A stretch of DNA of 28,260 bases from assembly GCA_910592005.1 (NCBI GenBank), contig CAJVPP010000649.1:1-28260 (forward strand), written 5' to 3'. Of the stretch, positions 1,338 through 28,035 are shown piece after piece (within the stretch, counting starts at the first letter, position 1; each line of letters begins with the position of its first letter). Both the position numbers and the translations under genes were made by a program. The notes beneath the pieces were generated by a model, which did no database searches, had not been told where the DNA came from, and saw only the letters and a program-made list of their open reading frames with translations. This stretch comes from Funneliformis mosseae. Taxonomy: Eukaryota > Glomeromycota > Glomeromycetes > Glomerales > Glomeraceae.

Positions 1338-4308
1338 AAGGCTTTTAATTGAATTGAGTAAGATCAATGATTGATTATTTCAATCAATTTGTTGATCGCA
1401 GAATATTGCCATCAATTAAAATTAGACTAATTTTAATTAATTTTTAATTAATTAAATTTCTATGAATGATCAATTAACAATTATTATATTTGATTAATTA
1501 TGTCATTATAATATAATATGGCATATAAATAAATAATAAACAAAACTAAATAATATCATTATTAAAGAAAGAAAATTCTTTTTAAAGTTCAATAATATTC
1601 GTAAAAGGAGAAAAATTTTTTTATTCTTAAGATATAGCAACTAGTCTTTTAACATTGAAGTATTTTAAATAAAATTATCATAGTTATAGTATTATTCATT
1701 TTTTTTATCATAAAAATGTATTTCAAAGTATCAGATTTTTATCTATAATATTTAAATTTTTAAATATCAGATGATAATAACAATACGTTTAATTTTAACA
1801 TGAAAAATTCAAATTTTTTTTAATATTCTTTTAAATACTAGATCAGAATAAAAAATATTAACACTAAACAATATTATTTTGATTTGGTTAACTAAAAAAA
1901 ATAAAATTGTTAATTTATCTTCAGATATTAATTAGCAAGAACCTCAGTGGTTTGAAATTGAAAATAATAAAACAAGTTGAGTGTGAAAGCATTTTGGAAT
2001 CAAAACTAATAGACATTCTTATTATAGATATAAATATTAAAAAATGAAATAGAAGAAGAGTATAATTATAGTTGTATATATAATACTCAAACTAGTACTT
2101 AATAACATTTAAATTCTGTTCATAAAGAGTTTAAAAAAGAAAAATTGGTAAGATAACATTATTATTACACATTTTTATTATAGATAGATATACATTAAAT
2201 TAATATATTATTTTTACTTTTTAGAAACAATTAAAGTAGATGATCAAATAAAAAAAGTTATGCTACATAAAGAACCTAAGCAACGTGAATTAAGGAATAC
2301 TTTGGCTAATTGGCTAGTAACAGATTCTCAACCTTTTAATTCAGCAAATAGAGAAGAATTTTTACGTATGATTAATAAGTTTGATCTTACATTTTAGCTA
2401 CCATGTTATGTAATGATTAAAAAAGATATTGGTTATGGATATCAAGCTGCATTTCAGGCTATAAAAAAAATGATTACGCATACCTGTGATACAGTAGCTA
2501 TAATTACAGATCTTTAGACATCTCACACAAAATCAGGTTATATTAAAATTACATGTCATTGGCTTATAGAAAATATGAAATTATATGATATATTAATTTG
2601 TGTTACACTAATTAATTATCCTCATAATGGCAATAATATTTGCCAAACTATTTTAACTAAACTTCAACTGTTTGGATTAGATAGTAAAGTAAATTTAGCA
2701 ATTAGTGACAATAATAGTAATATGATTAAAGCTATCCATGAATGGAATAGTATTAATCATATTCTATGCAGTATATATATATTGCAACTTTGTGTTATTA
2801 AAGGGTTAAAAAAAATTAAACTATATACCAAATGATTTAAGGAATTAATTCAATTTTTTAATTCTTTAAAATAAAATAAACGGTTAGAAGGGCTCAGAAA
2901 GAAATTGCATCTAGATATGATATACAACTAGAAAATAATTCAATTTTATTGATTTAACATCAATTAACTAACATCTATTAAAAATTTTGCAAACTATTAA
3001 TAATATTAAGATCTGATAAGGATCATTTTTAGCTTCTTAAAAAAGATTACAAGTATTAAAAGATCCTATTAAATTGGTTCTTTTAAATTTATGTCTAGAG
3101 AATAAATTTAAAAAAGATTATGAAAAATTAAGAATGTGAATTCTTTTAAATTATGAATGTATTTTATTAAAAAAAATTAATTGTTTTTTTAAACTAATTA
3201 AAGAAGCAACAGAATGGTTAGGTAATCAAAAATATTGTATATTTTCTTTAATATATCAATCTATTTATACATTATATTATGATTATATACCAGATATAGA
3301 TGATAATATTATTAACGAAAGTGGTAAGTATATATTTAAATAATTAAAAATAATTAAATTATATTTATTAATATTAAAATTCTTTTTTTTAGATAATAAT
3401 AATATTACTATAGATGAGGATTCTGTAGATAATGAAATTATACTAGATAATAAAGAAAGTGATGATAATAATGATGAGGAACAAATTTTTTCAAATAATA
3501 CACAAATGTCTTTATCAGAAATTAATAATATTATTAATTCTGTCAAAAAAGTAATATATAACGCATTATTAAATATTTTAATTCACCATTTAAAATTGCT
3601 GTATTTACTAGCTTTTTAGATTCAAAATTTAAAAAAATGTATAGATGGCCTGAAGAAATATGTGAAATAGCAATATTTTCATTAAAAAGTAAATATTATT
3701 TATTAAAAAATGAAGAAACTGTTATGCCTTAAATAAATTCAAGAAATAATTATCTAATAAATAGGTTTAAATTACATTTATTTAGATCTATGAAATAATG
3801 AAAAAGATGATAAAATCAATTGCTATTTGCATAATTTTAGAACTTCACAAGCTATATTCAAAATGGATCCATTTCAATAGTGGATTGATAATAAAAAGAA
3901 ATTCCAACTTTATTTAAAGTAGCTAGAAATATTTGAGTGTACTAGCCACATCTGTTTTAAGTAAGCGGCTTTTTAGTAATGCTAGAAATCAAATTACCAA
4001 AGATCAGATCAGTTTAAAACCAGAGACTATTAATGAATTATTGTTTATAGTAAATATTATAATCCTTTTGTATAATTATATGTTGGCAAATTAAAGAGAT
4101 TTTAGTAGTTATTATAATATTTGTAATTAATAAAAATTAGTTTATTGTAATTTTTGATGCTTATATTAATATTAATAATCAATCAATGATCAAGCAATTA
4201 AGAAATTGATCACATATGATCAATCAAATAAATCAATTTTTAATCGATCAAGTAAGTAAGAGATTGACTAAATCATTAATTATAATTTTTTTATCAATTA
4301 AATGCCTT
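1338..4308 (+). mobile_element. Degenerate hAT-superfamily DNA transposon
   Basis: Terminal inverted repeats AAGGCTTTTAATTGA (1338-1352) and TCAATTAAATGCCTT (4294-4308) match at 14 of 15 positions. Sub-terminal regions on both sides are rich in GATCAAT/ATTGATC motifs, a common place for transposase binding. Flanking sequence gives an imperfect direct repeat, TTAAAAGTAA at 1330-1339 against TTAAGAGTAA at 4307-4316 (9 of 10). It overlaps the repeat tips, so the exact duplication of about 8 bp is ambiguous. Inside is a transposase pseudogene with BED finger, DDE-type core and hAT dimerisation region, which identifies the superfamily. The element is not autonomous because its transposase is interrupted by many stops and frameshifts. 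Confidence 0.8.
1944..4094 (+). pseudogene. hAT transposase pseudogene (BED finger, RNase H-like core, C-terminal dimerisation domain)
   Basis: hAT transposases cut and paste their element in the nucleus. In order, the sequence shows: a degraded BED zinc-finger region at about 1944-2147 (YSC, then HLNSVH followed by KEFKKE); a probable intron 2148-2224 (GTAAGA...TTTTTAG); a core exon from about 2224 containing FLRMI, GYGYQAAF, ITDL-stop-TSHTKSGY and the conserved ISDNNSNM; a probable second intron 3324-3392 (GTAAGT...TTTTTTAG); an acidic Asp/Asn/Glu stretch; and finally FTSFLDSKFKKMY, RWPEE, SVLATSVLSKRLFSNAR and LKPETINELLF, the hAT dimerisation signature. In-frame stops lie at 2395-2397 and at 2515-2517, where the family has Trp (TTDxWTS). 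Several frameshifts follow 2835. The reading ends at TAA 4092-4094. The only sizeable uninterrupted piece with an ATG is 2575-2835. Family identity is firm; the intron limits are inferred. Confidence 0.88.
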
Positions 4309-18549: not shown

Positions 18550-20167
18550 AAGATTTAAGAATAAACAATAAATGTGCGCGTTACTTTGAAAATTATTGGT
18601 GGTTTGGTATAATTTTACTGTGATGATACGAGAATTCTAGTAAAGAATGATACTTATATATACAATAAAAAATATAATCATCACCAATCGCATTTGTAAA
18701 GTTTTGAAATATTGTACAATATATTATTTCGACATTTTAACATGTATGGAATGCTTTAGATAAATAAACTTTATACTGTAAGTTAGATTTGAGAAATGAA
18801 TTATCAAGGAAAAAAAAATAAAAATTACCTGCGAATCTATAAAGTAAAAAGAACATAAAAAAAAATTTGATCGTAGCAATGAACCAGAAATTTTAAAAAA
18901 AAATCAATTATATCTAAAAAAAAAAAAATCCCGCGTACATCCGAAGCGATCTAGCTCCTAATTATCATTAATGAATAAATTTGAAATTACTGTATAATTG
19001 TGACTTTGTGAAATATAATCAGAAGTGCTTGCAGTATCATACATAATATAACGAAGAAAGATATGGTCGAGATTAATGAAAAAGCCCACCTAATATTAAA
19101 TCCAAAATTCACGTGATGTGATTGCTTCATGTAATAGATGCCCATGCTCTTTCGACTATAGTAGCGGTGAATCCTCTTTACCTTACTAATTGAAATTGTT
19201 TAAATTTTTTGTTTTAAAAAAATACTTTTTGAAACAAGTGGTCAATTTGTTTATTTAAATATAATAATGTAACAATATTGTTTCGATTTCTTAGGTTAGG
19301 CTTACTGCAGTATAGTTTTTAGGTTTTTTTTTCATTTGAATTCTTTATTTTAATAATAGGCCATTTTATTTTTATTATTTTCATTTCTCCAACAAATTAA
19401 TAACAAATCCTATATTTATAATTCATTTATATTTTAATTTTTCGATATATTCTTTTATTAGCATGTGTTCGATCGCTCGCGTCGATTAAATAATAGGTAG
19501 GTTTGGTTTATTTAATTTTCTTCCGATTCAATTTTTTTTATTTTTTTGAAATCTAAAATTTAATAAAATATTGTAACTGCTAGTATAATTTAAAACATAT
19601 TTTTCAAATTGGTCGTCCGGATGTGATGAAATTTATTTTTTTTTTTTTTTATAAAGTTGTCGAATGGAAGCAAACATTTATTGAATACATAACAATAAAA
19701 TAAAACATGAAATTTGAGCTTAACGTTAATTTTAGTCAAAAATTTCTCGGAACTTGATTTTTCTAAAATCCTCCCATAAATCTTAGACCAATTTTTTATA
19801 TGAAAGAAAAGAAAGTTTAAATCCAATAATATCATAAAACCTGCAACCTCGTATTTGGAATGACATATTAAAAAGAAATATCAGGTGTATATAAAAGGGC
19901 TGTTGAAAAATAATTTAAAGACAAAGTTTAAATGAAAACTTCTAATATTTTAACGCTTATAATTTTTTCTAATTTTCAAAAAAGAAAGCCTTTATACTTG
20001 AAAAAATAACCTTCTAATTGTCTATGCTATGTATTGCAAAATTTAATGAATGTAACTATGGCCACTATTTTGTCATCGATACTTAAGATAAAATAACCTA
20101 ATTTAACAATCAGAGTTCTTTACTCTTCAAAAACAGCACTAAGAAAGTTATGTAGAAGGTTAAAAAT
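18550..20167. other. Intergenic DNA downstream of the kinase gene
   Basis: There is no recognisable gene. Patches of more mixed composition occur near 18930-18960 (CCCGCGTACATCCGAAGCG), 19060-19190 and 19470-19490. An 81-codon minus-strand ORF at 19590-19835 overlaps the MITE arm at 19717-19776 and a long T run, so it is not called. The segment just below 20168 would hold the 3' untranslated region of the kinase gene. Confidence 0.4.
19717..19776. mobile_element. Solo arm of the TA-flanked MITE family
   Basis: The segment contains TTTCTCGGAACTTGATTTTT and ends AAATCCTCCCA followed by TA. It closely matches the right arm of the MITE at 9604-9760. No partner arm is seen nearby. It is a truncated copy and shows that the family is dispersed. 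Confidence 0.6.
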
Positions 20168-22718
20168 TTAGGTAATATTACAGGATTTATTCGAATTATT
20201 AATTAAAGATGCAGGTTTAATACTCGTTAAGGAATCGGGTAAATTTGGTAAGCTAGTTATTGAAGTATTTGTACAGTCAAGTTTCGTTAAGGAGTTGGGT
20301 AACGTTGGAAGGATAATTATTGGAGTATTAGAGCAATAAAGATAATTTAAGGAGTTGGGCAATGTAGGTAAGCTATTTATATGAGTGCTATAACAGTTGA
20401 GTACCTTTAAGGAGTTGGGTAAGGTTGGTAAGCTATTTATTTTAGTCATATGACAATAAAGTTTCGTTAAGGAGTTGGGTAAAGTTGGTAGGATAGTTAT
20501 TGGAGTATCAGCGCAATAAAGTTCCGTTAAGGAGTTGGATAATGTTGGTAAGCTATTTATTTTAGTACAACTACAAATGAGTAGCTTTAAGGAGTTGGGT
20601 AATGTCGGTAGGATAGTTATTGGAGTATTGGAGCATTCAAGTTCCGTTAAGGAGTTGGGTAAGGTTGGTAAGCTATTAATTTTAGTCATATGACAATAAA
20701 GTTCCGTTAAGGAGTTGGGTAATGTTGGTAGGATAGTTATATAAGTACTGGAGCAATCAAGTTCCGTTAAGGAGTTGGGTAATGTTGGTAAGCTAATTAT
20801 TTTAGTGTTTTGACACCAGAGTGTCGTTAATGAATTAGGTAATGTTGGTAGGATAGTTATTTCAGTACCAGAGCAATAAAGTACCGTTAAGGAGTTGGGT
20901 AAAGTTGGTAAGCTATTTATTCTAGTCCTATAACATTTGAGTTCCGTTAAAGAGTTAGGTAAGGTTGGTAATCTAGTTATTGGGGTATCAAAGCAATAAA
21001 GTTCCGTTAATGAGTTGGGTAATGTTGGTAAACTATTTATTTTAGTCCCATAACACCTGAGTACTGTTAAGGAGTTGGGTAATGTTGGTAGGATAGTTAT
21101 TGGAGTATCAGAGCAATATAGTTCCGTTAAAGAGTTGGGTAATGTTGGTAAGCTGGTTATCTGAGTATTATTACAGCCGAGTACTTTTAATTTCCGATAT
21201 CTTTGCAATCCTCCCAAGGCGTTTAATATGTCATCCTTATTATATTCCGAAATCGTTAAACTTTCAATAATATCATCGTAAATAATATTCGATAATTCAA
21301 TATTTGACTCAAATTTTTCTACATACTTCTGACCAGCCAAATGAATTTGATCTTTTAACTGATCAAATCGAAAAATTTGTGATGAATTATTTATACTAGA
21401 AGAAGTATTGTTGTTATTCAAATGACGAAGATTTGATTCATAATTTTTCGTTTGATTATTTACTGTTATGTTAGTTATCGTAACAATTGCATTTAATTTA
21501 TCAACTACTTGATTCATTGATGGACGCTTATCCGGCACATTATCCCAACACCCTGAAAATTAGGTAAAATTTTAATAATCATTTATATTCTATAATTAAA
21601 TTAAATATAATCGTATATTTACCAGTATAAATGTTCACATAATCTTCTGGTGTATCAGGAACGATCTTTTCTCTAAGTCCTCCTAAAATTTCGATAGCTA
21701 AACCAATATCATATCCTTCATCATAAAAAGGAGGACGACCACTCGAAATCTCCCACAAGAGCACGCCAACACTATAAACGTCACTCTTTTCGTTTAGTTT
21801 AAATTGTGGCAATTTATTGTCATTTTTCCGTCTATTAAAAATTTTTGGGTCAACATAAGGGATTACTCCAAAAGCTTTTGCTTTACTAGTTGCTGCTTCG
21901 ATTCTTTTCGATAATCCAAAGTCAGCTAGTTTAATAACTCCTTGATGAATTAATACATTGCCGGAATGCTATTATATACGAATATCAAAAAAATTAATTT
22001 TTAAACAGCAATATTCGGAAGAATATATATGTTTTGTAAGTTTACCAAATCGCGATGCACAATTCCTTCGTTATGTAAATACGATACAGCACAAGCCAAT
22101 TGGAATGCCAATTTGTATTTATCTCCCCAAGCTAGATTATCAAAATTACCCTTCAAATAATTTTTAAGTGAACCACCGTCAGCATATTCCATTACTATCC
22201 AATATTTTTTCAATTGAACATTTGGATTTTCTAATTTTTTTTTTTAAAAAAAAAAAAAATATTTATAAATAAATTAAAAATAAGATGCTAATATTAATAT
22301 ATTATCTCATTATTTAAAATTTTGTACCTTGGTTTAATGTTGATGTAATTCCCAAAAAGCGAATGATATTGCTATGAAAATCAACTTCCCGTTGAAGCTC
22401 AAGCTAAAGTTATTTGAAAATAAATTTTAGCTTGGTATCTATACTAAATAGACCGAAATAAACCGAAATGCATATTATGTTTGTACTTACCTCACGAATA
22501 AGTTCTTTAACAGTATCATTGTTAAAGATATGAAACGCTTTTAAGGCGAGATGTTGATATGAATTTTTCCAATTTGCACGATAAACTTTTCCAAAGCTGC
22601 CTGTACCAATCTCTTGAAAATTACTAAGTTGTTTATATTCGTAGTATTTGATACTTTTTTTTAAGATAGAATTTTCAATCCAATTAACCCATTCATTTGA
22701 AGCGTTAGCAGCTTGCAT
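20168..22718 (-). CDS. Tyrosine-kinase-like protein kinase with C-terminal array of 16 bacterial-type leucine-rich repeats
   Basis: Five exons on the minus strand, 22718-22491, 22403-22328, 22230-22046, 21968-21623 and 21552-20168, total 2220 nt and encode 739 residues. All four introns (70-97 bp) are GT-AG and all phases agree. Kinase domain, about residues 30-301: Gly loop GTGSFGKVYRA (38-48), Lys60 in LALK, alpha-C Glu82, catalytic loop HRDLHSGN (160-167), DFG (179-181), PYVDPK activation segment, KSDVYSVGVLLWEISSGRPP, and a final DKRPSMNQVVDKL. All catalytic residues are present, so it should phosphorylate proteins in the cytoplasm. No signal peptide or membrane segment is seen. An Asn/Ser-rich linker (about 310-340) and a helical stretch lead to 16 exact 20-residue repeats (401-720) of the form LPTLPNSLTELYCSDTPITI, then a 19-residue tail. 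The start at 22718 is the first ATG and allows a full N-lobe. Substrate and ligand are unknown. Confidence 0.93.
20228..21187 (-). repeat. 16 tandem 60-bp units encoding the leucine-rich repeats
   Basis: Each unit is exactly 60 bp with no indels across 960 bp. The half encoding LPTLPNSLT (plus strand GTTAAGGAGTTGGGTAA) is nearly invariant, while the other half differs from unit to unit. Two unit types alternate for most of the array, one ending PITI and one ending KINS, giving a 120-bp higher-order period that breaks where repeats 13 and 14 are both of the second type. This points to growth by duplication of pairs. Repeats 1 and 16 are the most divergent, as usual for array edges. Confidence 0.95.
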
Positions 22719-26094: not shown

Positions 26095-28035
26095 CGAACA
26101 ATTCTTTTATCATTCTTTTGGAATAATAATTTCAATCATTGCAAATAAACAATTTTTTTATTATTTGTTTGGAATTATAATTTCATCATTCTAATTGAAT
26201 GATTTTTTCATTGTTCTTTTGGAATGATAATTTAATTTTTCCAATTAAATGATTTTTTTATCGTTTGTTTGAAATGATAATTTAATCGTTCTAATCAAAC
26301 GATTCTTTTATCATTTTTTTAGAATAATATTTAATCATTCCAAATGAATGATTCTTTTATTATTCATTTGAAATGATGATTTAATCATTTCAATTGAACA
26401 ATTTTTTATTGTTTCAAATGAACGATTCTTTTATCATTCGTTTAGAATGATGATTTAATTATTTCAAATGAACGATTTTTTTATCGTTCATTTGGAATGA
26501 TAATTTAATCATTCCAAATGAATGATTCTTTATCATTCCAATTAAACATATTCTTATCGTTCATTTGGAATGATGATTTAATCATTCTAATTGAACGATT
26601 ATTTATCATTCTTTTAGAACGATAATTAAATCATTTCAATTGAACAATTCTTTTATTGTTCTTTTGGAATGATAATTTAATGATACCAATTGAACAATAT
26701 TCTTATCATTTGTTTGGAATGATAATTTAATTGTTCCAAATGAATGATAATTAAATCATTCCAATAGAACAATATTCTTATTATTCGTTTAGAATGATAA
26801 TTTAATCATTCCAATTGAACGATATTCTTATCATTCATTTGGAATGATGATTTAATTATTCTAATTGAATGATAATTTAATCATTCCAATTGAATGATTT
26901 TTTATCATTCATTTGGATGATAATTAAATCGTTCTAATCAAACAATTCTTTTATCATTCTTTTAGAATGATAATTTAATCATTCCAATTGAACAATATTC
27001 TTATCGTTCTTTTAGAATGATAATTAAATCATTCTAATCAAACGATTCTTTTATTGTTCTTTTGGAATAATAATTTAATCATACTAATCAAATAATATTC
27101 TTATCATTCATTTGGAGTGATAATTTAATTATTCCAAATGAACGATAATTAAATCATTCCAATAGAATGATATTCTTATTGTTTGTTTGGAATAATAATT
27201 TAATCATTCTAATTGAACGATATTCTTATCATTCGTTTGAAATGATGATTTAATTATTCCAATTGAATGATTTTTATTATTTCAATCAAACGATATTCTT
27301 ATTGTTCGTTTGGAATGATAATTTAATCATTCCAAATAAATGATTCTTTTATCATTAATTTGGAATGATAATTTAATCATTCTAATCGAATGATATTCTT
27401 ATCGTTCTTTTGAAATGATAATTAAATCGTTCCAATCGAATAATTCTTTATCGTTCTTTTGGAATGATAATTTAATCGTACCAATTGAACAATATTCTTA
27501 TCATTTGTTTGGAATAATAATTTAATCGTTCTAATGAATGATAATTAAATCATTTTAATCAAACGATAATTTAATCATTCCAAATGAATGATAATTAAAT
27601 CGTTCTAATTGAATGATTCTTTTATTATTCTTTTGGAAAGATAATTTAATCATTCCAATAGAACGATATTCTTATTGTTTATTTGGAATGATAATTTAAT
27701 CATTCCAAATGAATGATTCTTTTATTGTTCATTTGGAATGATAATTTAATTATTCTAAATGAACAATTCTTTATTGTTCATTTGAAATGATAATTCAATC
27801 GTTCCAGACAAACGATTCTTTTATCGTTCATTTGAAATGATAACCAATCATTTCAGACGAATGATTCTTTATCGTTCATTTGGAATAATAACTTCAATCA
27901 TTCCAATTGAACAATTTTTTATCATTCTTTTGGAATGATAATTTCAATCATTTTGAATAGATGATTTTCTTATCGTTCATTTGGATGATAAATTTAATCA
28001 TTCTTTTAGAATAATAAATTTAATCATTCCAAATT
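26095..28035. repeat. Satellite array, about 50-bp dyad-symmetric unit, roughly 39 copies
   Basis: The interval is a tandem array in which TTTGGAATGATAATTTAATC recurs about every 50 bp. Each unit combines AATGATAATTTAATCATTCC, close to its own reverse complement, with a second dyad such as GAACGAT...TTTTATCGTTC. The array can therefore fold at almost every unit, and its two strands look alike. Units differ by C/T and G/A changes (ATCATTC, ATCGTTC, ATTGTTC), by presence or absence of the TTCTTTTAT spacer, and by occasional half units. There is no open reading frame. It may be a satellite or an expanded palindromic transposon terminus. Confidence 0.9.

Follow-up and report, generated by a model that had tools for sequence, protein, structure and literature searches.

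Gene structure and domains at the locus

The stretch of DNA analysed here, which we call the window, comprises 28,260 nucleotides of the Funneliformis mosseae genome (contig CAJVPP010000649.1 of assembly GCA_910592005.1) and carries on its minus strand, from 22718 to 20168, a gene of five exons and 739 codons plus a stop, with no internal stop, in which a TKL-like protein kinase (residues 1 to ~304) precedes an array of 16 leucine-rich repeats (LRRs) of the class known from bacterial proteins such as YopM. An initial annotation, made from this sequence, had proposed such a kinase fused to a YopM/IpaH-type array in one consistently spliced gene, and both the fusion and the splicing are borne out. 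All four introns have GT-AG borders and keep the frame (70-97 bases, 75-92% AT). Where tblastn recovers paralogues from the same genome in pieces, the breaks fall at similar places in the kinase (residues 77, 100, 163 and 279), and this coincidence lends the splice model support that does not depend on RNA data. In the fifth exon one open frame covers the last part of the kinase, CWDNVPDKRPSMNQVV, and the complete repeat array. On this ground a pair of neighbouring genes, or an overlap by chance, was rejected, and the joining of the two parts within one exon speaks against the separate LRR part by which the initial annotation would have been refuted. The most hydrophobic 19-residue stretch of the protein scores 1.22 and no transmembrane segment is found; because of this the protein should sit in the cytosol, in line with the cytoplasmic kinase first proposed.

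By its best matches (120 of 1116 listed), the kinase half is a member of a Glomeromycotina group of TKL-like kinases, fungal in type. The organisms named among these matches are Rhizophagus, Glomus, Gigaspora, Funneliformis, Diversispora and Entrophospora, and the best are from Rhizophagus and its kin, with P0121 sharing 64% identity across 97% of the region. PMC10234402 gives 2,533 as the number of kinases in R. irregularis. The catalytic residues had been called intact throughout, and this holds for the glycine loop, the VAIK Lys, HRDLHSGN (HRDLxxxN) and DFG, but not for the Glu of APE, which is replaced by Lys (DPK). Because DPK occurs in 89 of the 117 motifs recovered by pattern from the listed relatives, we read it as a trait of the kinase group. 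The open reading frame (ORF) of exon 1 matches Pfam Pkinase, below the cut-off when taken alone, and a Pfam scan of the ORFs of the gene gave no match to Sel1 repeats (PF08238).

The array begins at residue 400, and each of its units is exactly 20 residues long, with Cys at unit position 6 and Thr at unit position 9 in 16 of 16, as counted initially; LPxLP is present in 15 of the 16, the exception being LPTLS in the unit at residue 600. Tandem Repeats Finder reports periods of 60 (15.8 copies, score 831) and 120 (7.8 copies, score 1001), and as a sequence pattern the array lies far beyond chance. It matches Pfam LRR_4 (E 1.7e-31), and a sequence search of the PDB places YopM (4ow2, E 5.3e-43) far ahead of the best plainly eukaryotic entry, Ras suppressor protein 1 (E 4.4e-5), so that the bacterial class leads by far among solved structures and no firm assignment to a eukaryotic class results. 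An AlphaFold model of the repeat part, from residue 350, gives an elongated solenoid (predicted local distance difference test, pLDDT, 89) of the kind envisaged at the outset, with YopM as the best structural match (template modelling score 0.81 by query for the alignment to 4ow2) and SHOC2 also ranking high; a family that goes unlisted among the VIA structural matches may still match. The modelled portion of the linker mostly has pLDDT <50, as do the final 11 residues of the protein.

PMC5976695 defines the N-subtype by a 20-residue unit with the variable segment xxLPxLPxx, and PMC2946307 defines the conserved segment as LxxLxLxxNxL, where N may be Asn, Thr, Ser or Cys. The window units fit the latter, with Thr at N in 16 of 16 and Cys where the definition has its third L. 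Judged from these features and from the predicted fold, the repeats are of the bacterial LRR class, N-subtype. An identity as FNIP repeats was rejected (19.1 bits against a Pfam cut-off of 21). The NCBIfam SspH2 model scores 179 bits, where its cut-off is 1243, over the LRR part only, and this match adds little, the NCBIfam library being confined to bacterial and archaeal models. Neither an E3 ligase domain nor the Roc-COR GTPase of Roco/LRRK kinases turned up when the ORFs were scanned with Pfam, and the NB-ARC or NACHT domain of NOD-like receptors matched in none of the four ORFs scanned at E up to 0.1; membership of the Roco/LRRK kinases and of the NOD-like receptors was accordingly rejected.

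Table 1. Features of the window gene and of its surroundings in the 28,260-nucleotide window
Feature	Position	Strand	Content
Exon 1	22491..22718	-	Start codon and kinase N-lobe, with glycine loop GTGSFG and the Lys of LALKAF
Exon 2	22328..22403	-	Kinase helix C region; GT-AG borders, frame kept, break points common to paralogues
Exon 3	22046..22230	-	Hinge to start of catalytic loop (HRDL); PK_Tyr_Ser-Thr, E 8.4e-14
Exon 4	21623..21968	-	Remainder of catalytic loop (HSGN), DFG, activation segment (DPK replacing APE), KSDVYSVG; Pkinase, E 5.5e-13
Exon 5	20168..21552	-	Kinase end, linker, N-cap, 16 LRRs, C-cap, stop; single open frame
Linker between kinase and LRRs	21293..21475	-	Residues 305-365; low-complexity, Asn/Ser-rich
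Solenoid N-cap	21191..21292	-	Residues 366-399, IIYDD..SLTI..NKDDILNALGGLQRYRKL; strand and helix in the predicted model
16 LRR units of 20 residues	20231..21190	-	Residues 400-719; assigned to the bacterial class, consensus LTxLxCxxTxIxxLPTLPNS
C-terminal cap and tail	20171..20230	-	LTSIKPASL...; paralogue ends similar
AT-rich tandem repeats	26101..28029		~1.9 kb; periods 25, 50 and 273; ATCATTC/GAATGAT inverted motifs
Short ORF	2188..2397	+	Weak match, below cut-off, to Hermes transposase DNA-binding domain
Short ORF	18987..19199	-	Saf_2TM effector domain, 18.8 bits against a cut-off of 29.5

Relatives in the genome and origin of the repeat class

The window gene is not a lone fusion. Searched against the F. 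mosseae assembly (82.0 Mb, 4154 contigs), the protein encoded by exon 5 has 151 matches with E of 1e-10 or below; grouped by eye, they fall into 86 further loci, so that the genome holds at least 87 arrays including that of the window gene. This count is a lower bound (92 of 371 candidates scored), as are those of the scans with a coil query (150 of 616), for downstream kinases (145 of 1118) and of a further genome scan (150 of 1020); matches resembling exon 1 number at least 150 (150 of 340 candidates scored). The N-cap is conserved across the family in an alignment of 12 members.

Arrays of this class are found behind different N-terminal modules. Among the 87 loci, 41 are preceded by kinase exon 1, which lies 728-1960 bases away (median 1178; 1168 in the window gene), 32 have an apparent coiled coil, 8 lie at the start of a contig and 6 are unassigned; this tabulation used 107 of the 150 exon-1 matches and 70 coil-query matches, 32 of which were taken as coiled coils, judged by eye from the sequence and not by a coil predictor. 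Weaker coil-query matches of 45-49% identity at C2168, C2293, C3265 and C1782, all of which have a kinase exon, were set aside by hand, and the lack of loci with both kinase and coil partly reflects this choice; C2168 and C2293, where read, have an Asn/Ser linker and not a coil. Twenty relatives were fetched as the best-scoring and not at random, and four others were chosen for their downstream kinase. Fourteen of the twenty have kinase sequence before the array (three of them, L040, L054 and L057, cut by a contig edge) and six do not; in five of these six the frame opens with an apparent coiled coil, and for L046, the remaining one, the coil query matches a separate stretch immediately upstream.

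A second kinase lies downstream of the array at nine loci (C2604, C2584, C2019, C1741, two on C136, C2293, C66 and C1334), and exon 1 is found upstream at all nine, giving the order kinase-LRR-kinase. Six such loci were read (L048, L055 and L078-L081), and the first kinase looks impaired in four of them. At L055 it has GFG replacing DFG, at L078 it has no exon-4 match and no space for one, at L079 exon 1 contains three stops and the second kinase has NLG replacing DFG, and at L081 the first kinase is without its C-lobe; at L048 the third Gly of the glycine loop is Arg. Two further copies of exon 1, at C2903:830-1057 and C837:445-672, are 96% and 87% identical to that of the window gene and are likely its closest paralogues cut at assembly breaks, with the LRR part off the contig if the layout is kept. 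A second, short array of the same class lies on the opposite strand (L051:173-568, minus) beside the kinase-LRR gene of C142, and may be a fragment.

The kinase has its listed relatives in fungi, whereas those of the repeats, where named, are bacterial. A search of 5.8 billion proteins with the LRR region returned 1330 matches (best E 1.5e-135). Most of the 120 listed name no organism; those that do are Bacteroidota, plus one soil metagenome, and a eukaryote is named in none. Annotated close relatives of the repeats from Glomeromycotina were likewise not seen among the matches listed, which does not imply their absence. The listed relatives are Bacteroidota surface proteins, most of them, as counted by eye, with the sorting domain PF18962, and the Pfam column for these 120 shows no kinase domain. 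The likeness to effectors put forward initially therefore stands for the repeat class and the solenoid, both shared with YopM, but the listed sequence relatives are surface proteins of Bacteroidota. A scan of bacteria and archaea, one genome per species, yielded 19 loci, which by their titles comprise 17 from Bacteroidota or its subgroups and 2 from Saccharibacteria. A viral origin was rejected (57 pattern matches in viral contigs, 0 confirmed), and a query with the N-cap (residues 355-415) gave 59 candidates, none at E 1e-3.

To compare residues, we took 1593 repeats from the 120 listed bacterial proteins and 469 from the fungus. Cys at position 6 is found in 95% of the bacterial and 97% of the fungal repeats and is thus no peculiarity of the latter; of the two substitutions that the initial annotation singled out, it is the other that is distinctive, since position 9 is Asn in 90% of the bacterial repeats and Thr in 90% of the fungal ones. 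Thr at this position reaches at most 15% among the 119 bacterial proteins with at least five units, and 25% in one of the 19 loci of the bacterial and archaeal scan (L075, 8 units). The commonest residue is the same in both sets at 9 of the 11 non-core positions, one of them tied. Because the bacterial set was picked by its similarity to the query, these shared residues favour common ancestry and do not prove it. On such comparisons, bacterial transfer of the repeats is probable and is to be preferred to convergence, and horizontal transfer is the likeliest origin of the repeat class.

PMC10507103 describes PknD kinase genes with LRRs in Mollicutes-related endobacteria, with relatives in Glomeromycotina, and reads them as acquired from fungi, Glomeromycotina included; because of these relatives, kinase-LRR proteins in Glomeromycotina are not unheard of. 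One could therefore suppose that the fungus and its endobacteria share kinase-LRR genes, some of which manipulate the fungus and are not its receptors. The window gene, however, has four GT-AG introns and many paralogues in a genome of 82 Mb, and the 19 loci of the bacterial scan carry titles of Bacteroidota or Saccharibacteria, although the collection scanned may not include such endobacteria; we consider this explanation very improbable.

The window is low in GC content, and neither Rfam nor a tRNA scan identified anything in it. The AT-rich repeats near its end are satellite-like, and the short plus-strand ORF with the Hermes match may be a transposon relic.

Variation among the repeats

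The variation of the repeats was assessed in 41 sources (the window and 40 loci), of which 36 supplied 38 arrays with at least five strict units. In the resulting 469 repeats, positions 1, 4, 6, 9, 11, 14, 15, 17 and 18 are nearly fixed; since units without the demanded L and P letters were dropped, positions 1, 15, 17 and 18 look fixed by construction and 4 and 14 were helped. Cys 6 (97%), Thr 9 (90%) and Ile 11 (93%) were free to vary and are near-fixed all the same. Variation is concentrated at positions 3, 5, 7, 8 and 10 (entropies of 2.80, 3.24, 2.75, 3.31 and 2.35 bits), the outward residues of the strand and the following turn, which form the concave face. Within arrays, the proportion of amino-acid differences (pN) over the pooled proportion of silent differences (pS) is 1.59, 1.82, 1.63 and 1.72 at positions 3, 5, 7 and 8, about 1.6 for the face overall (1.48-1.79 for the exposed set under alternative mutation models) and 0.10 for the core. 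Exon 4 of the kinase, taken as a control from 10 loci extracted with a looser pattern, has pN/pS of 0.42 over the 45 pairs of 10 sequences and 0.56 over the 10 pairs with pS <0.30, with a maximum of 0.99. A core that is near-fixed beside a strand face that varies, with Cys 6, Thr 9 and Ile 11 kept though free, argues that the solenoid is under selection.

A conserved core, a varied concave face, at least 87 copies and different signalling modules are what one would expect of recognition receptors, and this variation fits the recognition surface that the initial annotation had thought the architecture suited to. We therefore lean, with slightly better than even confidence, towards reading the window gene as a putative cytosolic kinase-LRR member of a large diversifying family that would most likely serve as a repertoire of intracellular recognition receptors, the receptor role of the window protein itself being putative. 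Among the observations behind this reading is also that, in a recent tandem duplicate, the array has changed faster than the remainder of the gene.

Several observations weigh against this reading. The bacterial repeats have entropies of 3.80, 3.65, 3.44, 3.42 and 3.09 bits at positions 3, 5, 7, 8 and 10, and because they vary at least as much there, the variability of the face is by itself no mark of an immune receptor; the fungal contrast lies in the quiet of the remaining non-core positions (0.63-1.89 bits against 2.33-3.83 in the bacterial set) and not in the busy face alone. Position 10 has a pN/pS of 1.19 (0.96-1.40), not clearly above 1, and all these repeat-to-repeat ratios differ from an orthologue test in that repeat exchange breaks its assumptions. 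In a tandem pair of coiled-coil members on C405, 22 of 294 codons in the array carry silent changes against 1 of 117 before it, so that part of the variation must be ascribed to mutation or conversion, and the differences in ten units of this pair are spread over the face (20), the core (7) and elsewhere (9). Some family copies look broken, with internal stops, and in an assembly of 4154 contigs arrays may be mis-assembled and array lengths depend on the assembly. The readings proposed here, moreover, draw on sequence and predicted structure, and activity, binding and expression are putative.

The same C405 pair bears on a simpler account, in which a kinase gained a 60-bp repeat that slippage and conversion then varied as a coding minisatellite, leaving ordinary kinases with a tolerated solenoid tail. 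Ahead of the array the two members differ at 4 of 117 codons, inside it at 66 of 294, plus one whole unit (Fisher p 4e-7), and since amino-acid changes (44 against 3) are raised together with the silent ones, repeat exchange must take part in the process. The arrays are, moreover, exact 60-bp tandem repeats, and repeats are slightly more alike within an array (0.772) than between arrays (0.734), as drift would have it. Drift alone does not, however, lead one to expect a near-fixed core beside a varied face (pN/pS 0.10 against about 1.6), even if the fixation at L and P is partly made by the pattern, nor the presence of such arrays with different N-terminal modules, and we regard this account as rather unlikely. 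We also doubt, and a little more strongly, that the family is a set of signalling scaffolds in which the LRRs bind fixed internal partners, as SHOC2 does, and members have split the labour instead of recognizing foreign or changing ligands: the structural likeness to SHOC2 and the lack of a membrane segment would suit such a role, but for a fixed scaffold the number of arrays, at least 87, is high, and their faces vary strongly.

Proposed role and comparison with known systems

If the family does act as a recognition repertoire, its history and working may be pictured as follows. Bacteria with LRRs like those of Bacteroidota probably supplied the repeat class to the fungal line, where it was probably joined to a home-grown TKL-like kinase. 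The concave face would bind a range of ligands, proteins or peptides that may be microbial, self or non-self; such contact would free or cluster the kinase or the coiled coil, and the freed or clustered module would start a phosphorylation response. New specificities would keep arising as repeats undergo unequal exchange and conversion, while selection holds the core. More boldly, and with somewhat less than even confidence, we propose that the fungus has built from bacterial LRRs and from TKL-like kinases or coiled coils an intracellular LRR repertoire laid out like that of plant resistance genes, which includes kinase-LRR-kinase members with an often impaired first kinase and whose face is diversified by repeat exchange and selection.

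Fungi were taken to have no recognition receptors like those that such a repertoire would contain. In PMC2939053, a survey covering the genomes of 101 species finds fungi without LRR pattern-recognition receptors, the exceptions being LRR adenylate cyclases and a few membrane-less LRR-protein kinases that are intronless and bacterial-like; PMC5658179 and PMC10197012 describe the nucleotide-binding, NOD-like receptors (NLRs) of fungi as without LRRs or mostly with other repeats. The words leucine, LRR and kinase are absent from PMC8786786, which treats variable tandem-repeat surface proteins in the same fungal group, and in the open-licence literature we found no description of the family beyond PMC10507103, and none of the class of its LRRs, of its three architectures or of the variation of its face. 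A large, face-variable and apparently cytosolic kinase-LRR family in an apparent root symbiont is a candidate for telling partners, endobacteria and strains apart, and, if the reading is true, eukaryotic receptors have here been made from a bacterial class of solenoid. For comparisons across strains, the residues of interest are those at the face positions, and the array, contained in a single exon, is easy to express.

With the type III effectors YopM, SspH and IpaH the window protein shares the 20-residue LPxLP unit and the solenoid, but these are secreted bacterial proteins, several with an E3 ligase domain, and the window repeats differ from theirs also in Cys 6 and Thr 9; membership of that family was rejected, the window gene being a fungal kinase gene interrupted by four introns, in a genome of 82 Mb, with no E3 ligase in the Pfam scan. 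The Bacteroidota surface LRR proteins, the best listed relatives of the repeats, agree in Cys at position 6 and differ in their Asn ladder and in having no kinase in the listed Pfam column. The TKL-like kinases and kinase-Sel1 proteins of Rhizophagus and its kin, P0121 among them, share the kinase group and DPK, but a pattern search found the 20-residue LPxLP unit of the window gene in none of the 120 listed of the 1116. P0240 of R. irregularis, with 1118 residues, two kinases, a GTPase-like domain and LRRs of another type, is a different fusion. The PknD genes of Mollicutes-related endobacteria, compared by domain content as given in PMC10507103, combine kinase and LRR and have Glomeromycotina relatives, but are bacterial. 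The LRR-protein kinases of Batrachochytrium and some ascomycetes, as described in PMC2939053, likewise have no membrane segment and are close to bacterial ones, but they are few (four and five) and intronless, whereas the present family has introns and at least 87 arrays.

The plant LRR receptor kinases, finally, also join LRRs to a kinase in a large family. Their LRRs are extracellular, however, and connect through one membrane helix to an inner kinase, whereas here the kinase precedes LRRs of the bacterial class; with the low hydropathy reported above, this order led us to reject membership of the plant type. A parallel to some members of the family described here, in which kinases lie on both sides of the array, is offered by the tandem-kinase immune proteins of plants.
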